DNA of 64,000 bases from Methanobrevibacter sp. YE315 (GTDB taxonomy: Archaea; Methanobacteriota; Methanobacteria; Methanobacteriales; Methanobacteriaceae): contig NZ_CP010834.1 in the NCBI RefSeq assembly GCF_001548675.1, forward strand, positions 2,143,501 through 2,207,500. The letters are read 5' to 3'. Positions 31,586 to 35,305 of this stretch are shown piece by piece (position 1 is the first letter of the stretch; each line of letters opens with the position of its first letter). Position numbers and translations under genes: made by a program. The notes below the pieces were generated by a model. It was not told where the DNA came from. It saw nothing but the letters and a program-made list of their open reading frames with translations, and did no database searches.

Positions 31586-31650
31586 ACACATAATATATAA
31601 ATTAATAAATACAAATTATTTCATGTATAAATGATAAGGTTGGTGAAAAT
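31586..31650 (+). promoter_or_regulatory. nadE promoter and ribosome site
   Basis: A TATA element (AATATATAAATT, about 31592-31603) predicts a transcript start near 31620-31625. GGTGA (31642-31646) follows and lies four bases before the ATT codon at 31651, which supports initiation there and not at the downstream TTG at 31792. Confidence 0.5.
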
Positions 31651-32439
31651 ATTAGTGAAATTCCAGAACTAAACTGTGAAAAAACAAAAAATGACCTTGT
31701 TGAATTCATAAAAACAAAAGTATCTGAAGCAAAAACCGATGGGATTGTAATCGGATTAAGCGGAGGTATTGATTCAACACTTGCAGCTTATTTGGCCTGC
31801 GAAGCTGTTGGAAAAGAAAACGTTTTTGGAATTACTATGCCATCCACTACAACACCAACAGAAGATAAGATTCATGGAATCGAAATAGCTCAAATATTGG
31901 GAATAGACCACAAAGAAATAGCTATTGACAGCATTTTGAATGAATACTTATCTATTACTCAGTTTGACAACGATGATTTAGCCATAGGCAATCTGAAAGC
32001 TAGAATCAGAATGTCAATCATTTATTATTATGCCAATCACAAAAATTACCTCGTTTGCGGAACAGGCAATAAAAGTGAAATACTGATTGGTTACTTTACA
32101 AAGCATGGTGATGGCGCATGCGACATTGAACCGATTGGAGATTTATATAAGACTGACGTATTCAAACTAAGCAGATTCTTAGATATACCAAAACAAATTA
32201 TTGATAAACCTCCTCGTGCAGGATTATGGGATAATCAAACCGATGAATCGGAAATCGGAATGAGCTATGATTTACTTGACCAAATCCTATATCTCAATAC
32301 TGAAAGAGATATGAAAAACACTGAAATTGCTGAAAAGTTAAATATTTCAGCGGATGATGTTGATATGATTATTAATAAAATGATCAGGAGCGAACACAAA
32401 AGTAAAGTTCCTGAAAGTCCTCAAAAAACAATATTATAA
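31651..32439 (+). CDS. nadE: NAD+ synthetase, apparently AUU-initiated
   Basis: NadE amidates nicotinic acid adenine dinucleotide to NAD+ using ATP and ammonia. The chain has the pyrophosphatase P-loop GLSGGIDST, followed by ATP- and NaAD-contacting regions ([31 protein letters not shown]). No glutaminase domain is present, so it uses ammonia. The first ATG/GTG/TTG in frame is a TTG at 31792, after the P-loop, which cannot be the start. The frame is open from 31609, and the ATT at 31651, with GGTGA four bases upstream, would give (M)[10 protein letters not shown] and a normal 262 aa. A sequencing error of ATG to ATT is the alternative. Confidence 0.9.
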
Positions 32440-32449
32440 TGGTGATTTA

Positions 32450-35296
<2,847 letters not shown>

Positions 35297-35305
<9 letters not shown>

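Follow-up and report, generated by a model that had tools for sequence, protein, structure and literature searches.

AUU as the strongly supported start codon of nadE behind a conserved Shine-Dalgarno sequence in Methanobrevibacter

Is the NAD synthase gene nadE of Methanobrevibacter sp. YE315 translated from an AUU codon, and what might keep such a codon at the head of an enzyme gene? The question is raised by a locus in the window, which is the whole stretch of 64,000 nucleotides that was analysed (contig NZ_CP010834.1, positions 2,143,501 to 2,207,500). An earlier note, made from the letters alone, had described a frame open from 31609 in which GGTGA precedes an ATT by four bases and in which the P-loop lies before the first ATG, GTG or TTG (TTG at 31792). 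All of these coordinates were verified in the sequence, and the spacer between GGTGA and ATT reads AAAT. The features of the gene are:

31642–31646, plus strand: Shine-Dalgarno (SD) sequence GGTGA of nadE, 4 nt before ATT (conservation, duplex energies)
31651–31653, plus strand: AUU start codon of nadE, as judged from aligned codons of relatives and the tree
31651–32439, plus strand: nadE, NH3-dependent NAD(+) synthase, 262 amino acids from ATT (NF010587, PF02540, PDB 2e18)
31753–31779, plus strand: P-loop GLSGGIDST, upstream of TTG 31792 (sequence)

Read from ATT, the product is (M)[10 protein letters not shown]..., 262 amino acids long, and ends at the stop codon TAA (32437–32439). It showed the full-length match that a start at ATT had been expected to give (NF010587, 329.8 bits, cut-off 255, residues 5–259), and it also matched PF02540 (286.7 bits) and, with residues 13–258, PDB 2e18. 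The SGGxDS P-loop is part of the product only if translation begins upstream of TTG 31792, the first in-frame canonical codon. The locus is present as a single copy in the genome (one contig of 2,273,296 bases) and is identical there to the window.

In a family-wide search nadE was found in 113 of 138 genomes, and in 65 of the 67 genomes of the genus (G023 and G119 showed no match). Start regions were read in these 65 genomes, in five tree rows from two neighbouring genera and in 14 further genomes of the family; 29 family genomes with a match were outside this reading, and 80 related loci, partly from the same genomes, were excluded from the counts. The aligned start codon was ATT in 36, ATG in 22, TTG in five and ATC in two of the 65 genus genomes (ATT 36, ATG 27, TTG 5 and ATC 2 in all 70 tree rows), so that at this codon ATT was replaced solely by ATC, TTG or ATG. 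ATT occurred in none of the 14 further family genomes, each of which has ATG at the aligned codon or at most three codons away. The comparison proposed in the earlier note, a search for ATG at 31651 in close relatives, gave ATT in all of the four closest ones (L002, L003, L112 and L113; proteins 81–86% identical).

The history of the codon was followed on an IQ-TREE protein tree of NadE, in which the first residue was set to M to keep the codon from shaping the topology. The start-codon label changes five times in total: ATG gave way to ATT once, on the stem of a clade of 44 rows (support 95/97), and within this clade ATT changed to TTG once (100/98), to ATC twice and to ATG once. The clade comprises 36 rows with ATT, five with TTG, two with ATC and one with ATG (L019), which corresponds to base counts of A39/T5, T44 and T36/G6/C2. 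ATG is present in every tree row outside the clade (a sister group of 12 species, L140, G033 and all deeper rows). Judged from these alignments, an AUU-started nadE is common to a large group of gut methanogens.

The ribosome-binding site is conserved together with the codon. GGTG at −9 to −6 is invariant in the clade (44/44 rows), A follows it in 42 of the 44 rows, and A is found at −3 in all of them. The strength of the SD was estimated from the duplex predicted between the final 20 bases of the leader and the archaeal anti-SD, whose sequence was assumed; a 16S search of the own genome, meant to check it, gave no match. With this assumed anti-SD, the median duplex energy was −9.85 kcal/mol in the 36 ATT rows, −7.4 kcal/mol in the five TTG rows, and −3.9 and −4.4 kcal/mol in the ATG rows of the sister group (12) and of the deeper lineages (14), respectively, and the lone ATG reversal within the clade retains −13.1 kcal/mol. 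The strong SD GGUUGGUGA accompanies the ATT clade, and most ATG-started relatives are without it. Since the predicted pairing is far stronger in the ATT rows than in the ATG relatives, a weak codon appears to be paired with a strong ribosome site. With AUU standing behind the SD at a working distance (GGTGA, 4 nt, ATT), these comparisons strongly support AUU 31651 as the true start codon of nadE with a well-placed ribosome site, as had been suggested.

Downstream, nadE is followed by leuS, and candidate promoter elements were detected upstream:

31594–31600, plus strand: TATATAA, candidate TATA box of the nadE-leuS unit (sequence; similar element in the leaders of relatives)
31610–31628, plus strand: imperfect palindrome TACAAATTATTTCATGTAT (TACA..TGTAT), situated after the TATA box and before the leader; kept in the ATT clade
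32441–32445, plus strand: SD sequence GGTGA of leuS, 4 nt before GTG (sequence)
32450–35305, plus strand: leuS, archaeal leucyl-tRNA synthetase with GTG start (TIGR00395, 1249 bits)

The GTG of leuS lies 10 nt behind the nadE stop codon, and its distance from the SD equals that of nadE (4 nt). The adjacency of both genes is kept across the 44-row clade, with a gap of 10–12 nt in nearly all members (4 nt in L002, 23 nt in L023). In the sister ATG clade (e.g. L024–L030), leuS apparently begins at or within the end of nadE (computed gap −10), unlike in the ATT clade with its gap of 10–12 nt and a leuS that has its own GGTGA. Adjacency to leuS was rejected as the cause of the codon change, because most species of the genus with an ATG-started nadE have leuS next to it, too.

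The TATA element of the earlier note is present, but it lies approximately 42 nt upstream of GGTGA (about 50 nt upstream of ATT) and not 30 nt as had been stated. A TATA-like sequence recurs in the matching place in the aligned nadE leaders of relatives. The palindrome is possibly an operator or a promoter element. An operator regulon was rejected, as 13 matches in the genome compared with 28 in the reversed control indicate no enrichment. At 1076054, the only site that differs from the palindrome by a single mismatch, the surrounding 3 kb contain no NAD gene; judged by eye, the neighbours are genes for a restriction-like protein and a DNA cytosine methylase. Likewise, a riboswitch or other known RNA family in the leader was dismissed, since the search yielded only a chance-level hit to SNORD98 (E 0.49, 18.6 bits, cut-off 50).

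Most probably, the AUU codon serves to adjust how much NadE is made from the nadE-leuS unit. We consider it highly probable that nadE is translated from AUU 31651, most likely in an SD-assisted and aIF1-limited manner, which would give a fixed low output of NadE from a transcript that also carries leuS. This proposal starts from the position and conservation of the AUU start, the co-conserved SD and the gene order, as found in the genomes compared; from these we infer co-transcription, a lower NadE output and a dependence on aIF1. Held in place by SD pairing, the 30S subunit would accept the initiator Met-tRNA in spite of the mismatch at the third codon position. The synthesis of NadE would then be limited because aIF1 presumably proofreads such mismatches. 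With nadE as the first and leuS as the second gene, a weak start codon would offer a simple means of keeping the level of NadE under that of LeuS. In the available parts of PMC6237735 and PMC7531240, aIF1 is described as the archaeal start-selection factor, which favours discrimination against non-canonical starts.

It is also quite possible that AUU serves as the start without any regulatory role, having drifted in once a strong SD made the identity of the codon matter less, and persists near-neutrally. All of the clade has a strong SD, the start codon tolerates replacement by ATC, TTG and ATG, and the two T>G changes seen at the third base (ATG once, TTG once) match the expectation from fourfold sites (about one). 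For T>C, about three changes were expected from the fourfold-site counts and two were seen. T>A was expected about three times and never seen, and therefore AUA looks avoided. Within the clade, 18 conserved Ile codons of nadE changed between 1 and 19 times each, with a median of about 11, compared with four changes of the start codon; together with the lack of ATA in all 44 rows, this argues that the start codon is not free, although Ile codon 4, which is also ATT, changed only once and thus less often than the start codon. Furthermore, start codons normally remain AUG: Belinky et al. 2017 (PMC5622118, available in part) report a single AUG-to-AUU change among 61,358 ancestral AUG starts of bacteria and archaea. 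Nevertheless, with respect to G the retention of T does not clearly exceed the neutral expectation, no pull towards AUG beyond the neutral rate is seen, and selection in favour of a weak codon is not proved. The stronger view, in which selection maintains AUU over AUG, was dropped, as the comparison with fourfold-site rates does not support it.

Instead of a fixed output, nadE might be controlled conditionally, with AUU initiation following the level or occupancy of aIF1 as an archaeal counterpart of the IF3 control of infC and sigR. We regard this as improbable. No feedback loop is evident for nadE, and we know of no link between NAD metabolism and aIF1. On the other hand, aIF1 disfavours non-canonical starts in Sulfolobus (PMC6237735) and has a role in fidelity (PMC7531240), according to the accessible portions of both articles, and sigR of Streptomyces provides a precedent. 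Like nadE, sigR has a conserved non-canonical start with an extended SD and stands first in a unit of two genes, the ratio of which is of importance; the start of sigR had been missed by annotation, as that of nadE probably would be. In difference to nadE, the codon is GTC behind a very extended ribosome-binding site, repression is by IF3, and the product is a regulator and not an enzyme (accessible text of PMC5472188).

The tie to initiation-factor feedback that the earlier note had drawn from infC does not hold for this gene. infC of E. coli, which encodes IF3, resembles nadE as a chromosomal protein gene with an AUU start, but it is bacterial, and its product is the very factor that reads the codon, hence the feedback, whereas NadE is a metabolic enzyme (PMC5472188 and PMC1780047, in the portions available). 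The host is an archaeon, and archaea use aIF1 in place of IF3 (PMC7531240, PMC6237735, likewise in part); the product of nadE is an NAD synthase and neither an initiation factor nor any other factor discriminating start codons. By analogy, pcnB of E. coli may be the closest functional model, as its AUU start holds down the expression of an enzyme without feedback (Binns and Masters 2002, as cited in the accessible part of PMC1780047). It differs in being bacterial, whereas the AUU of nadE is kept over 36 archaeal species with a co-conserved strong SD. For lepA of Borrelia burgdorferi and Bacillus licheniformis, AUU starts were predicted and, as in nadE, no canonical start restores the full protein, but these are isolated bacterial cases (PMC1780047, same part). 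Among titles and abstract openings of the open literature, where subscription journals are mostly not covered, no report of an AUU start in an archaeal gene was found.

A start elsewhere, either at an upstream ATG with a frameshift, at the near-cognate Ile codon 4, or at TTG 31792 with a short protein as the result, is very unlikely. In 31 of the 38 ATT/ATC rows, the frame contains no ATG, GTG or TTG from the closest in-frame stop upstream down to the codon, and in 24 of these 31 the stop is at most 24 nt away. No canonical start is found before +96, approximately at the P-loop, in 21 of the 31 rows (15 rows combine this with a stop within 24 nt), and in the remaining ten a canonical codon occurs between +18 and +69. 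An in-frame ATG, GTG or TTG at −12 to −24 is present in the other seven rows (L003, L017, L112, L113, L116, L126 and L131), among them three of the four closest relatives (L003, L112 and L113), because the length of the leader varies. These seven are the weaker cases, as initiation at the upstream codons could occur there in principle. Short ATG-containing stretches are also found 20–30 nt upstream in many species, but the distance from ATG to ATT varies through all frames, and therefore a programmed frameshift is ruled out. Codon 4 is a highly conserved ATT, but it encodes Ile in the ATG-started relatives as well, and a start at TTG 31792 would lose the P-loop. The alternation among ATT, ATC, TTG and ATG is confined to codon 31651.

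Although this genome is not free of frame damage or errors, as an aldo-keto reductase with a broken frame at another locus demonstrates, a decayed nadE or a sequencing or assembly error can practically be neglected, as NadE is intact (about 74–86% identical within the clade) and the same ATT is found in 36 species from separate assemblies; a sequencing mistake is excluded because AUU is kept in dozens of species and coupled to a strong ribosome-binding site. The aldo-keto reductase frame is broken near AAAAGGGGTTAA (L167:1-300, G000:C1:113001-113300), either by a frameshift mutation or by an assembly error.

AUU starts were previously known from a handful of bacterial genes. That dozens of archaeal species retain one in a gene of central metabolism, together with a conserved strong ribosome site, suggests that archaeal initiation can use AUU in earnest, and nadE offers a natural series of AUG, UUG, AUC and AUU at one site for the trade-off between aIF1, SD and codon. 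Gene callers restricted to ATG, GTG and TTG would probably truncate or drop nadE, and methanogens could therefore be wrongly scored as unable to make NAD, since NadE performs the last step of its synthesis.

Further genes with ATT, ATC or ATA (ATH) starts were sought in 1,264,000 bases of the own genome, which contain 1039 ORFs with a length of 110 codons or more. The listing covered ORFs in which an SD-linked codon of any kind precedes the first canonical start by 12 codons or more. Beside nadE, the credible cases are a membrane protein (ATT), presumably of a DUF3100-like family, its paralogue (ATA) and an adhesin-like protein (ATT). The membrane protein (L167:12753-14144, G000:C1:125753-127144), for which a search against NCBIfam gave no match, shows GGAGGGATTTT-ATT with 43 codons free of canonical starts, and the paralogue (G000:C1:1505061-1506468, plus strand) shows GGAGGAGATTTT-ATA with 28 such codons.

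A closer subfamily of 19 DUF3100-like sequences (L186–L203 and the paralogue) was compared, and 12 distant loci (L204–L215) were set aside. Behind GGAGG, 12 of the 19 showed ATT, one ATC and two ATA; nine of these 15 lack an upstream canonical start in frame, and in L191, L192, L194 and L203 the start is unclear or different. A conserved GGAGG-N6-8-ATT start is hence found in a membrane protein family unrelated to nadE. Two of the species with an SD-linked ATH codon (L197 in G096, L199 in G102) possess a nadE with ATG (L137 and L136, respectively), and therefore possible AUU starts are not limited to the nadE clade; L197 and L199 also carry an upstream canonical codon. Among the homologues at L204–L215, many are interrupted by a single in-frame stop or consist of two ORFs (about 290 and 165 codons).

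Two adhesin-like ORFs, recognised by eye, have ATT behind GAGGTG or GGTGA and 4 nt; one is G000:C1:1664290-1667239 (minus strand), and the other, G033:C1:1094002-1098850 (minus strand; from a 400-kb sample with 311 ORFs), reads GGTGA-AAAG-ATT. In both, a signal-peptide-like stretch, also seen by eye, follows the ATT, and the first canonical start lies inside the hydrophobic stretch. It is conceivable, if rather doubtful, that nadE, the DUF3100-like genes and some adhesin-like genes form a translational regulon in Methanobrevibacter, in which AUU, AUC or AUA with a strong SD would respond to start-codon stringency without IF3. For ATH codons behind an SD in ORFs without a canonical start, the counts were 4 of 11 compared with 228 of 1585 in the sampled own genome (p 0.06), and 2 of 3 compared with 77 of 561 in a control genome (p 0.05); pooled over both genomes, the excess is modest (6 of 14 compared with 305 of 2146, p 0.009). 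A small DNA-binding-like ORF (G000:C1:249480-249870, plus strand), ribbon-helix-helix by eye, also has an apparent start at ATC or at the preceding ATT.
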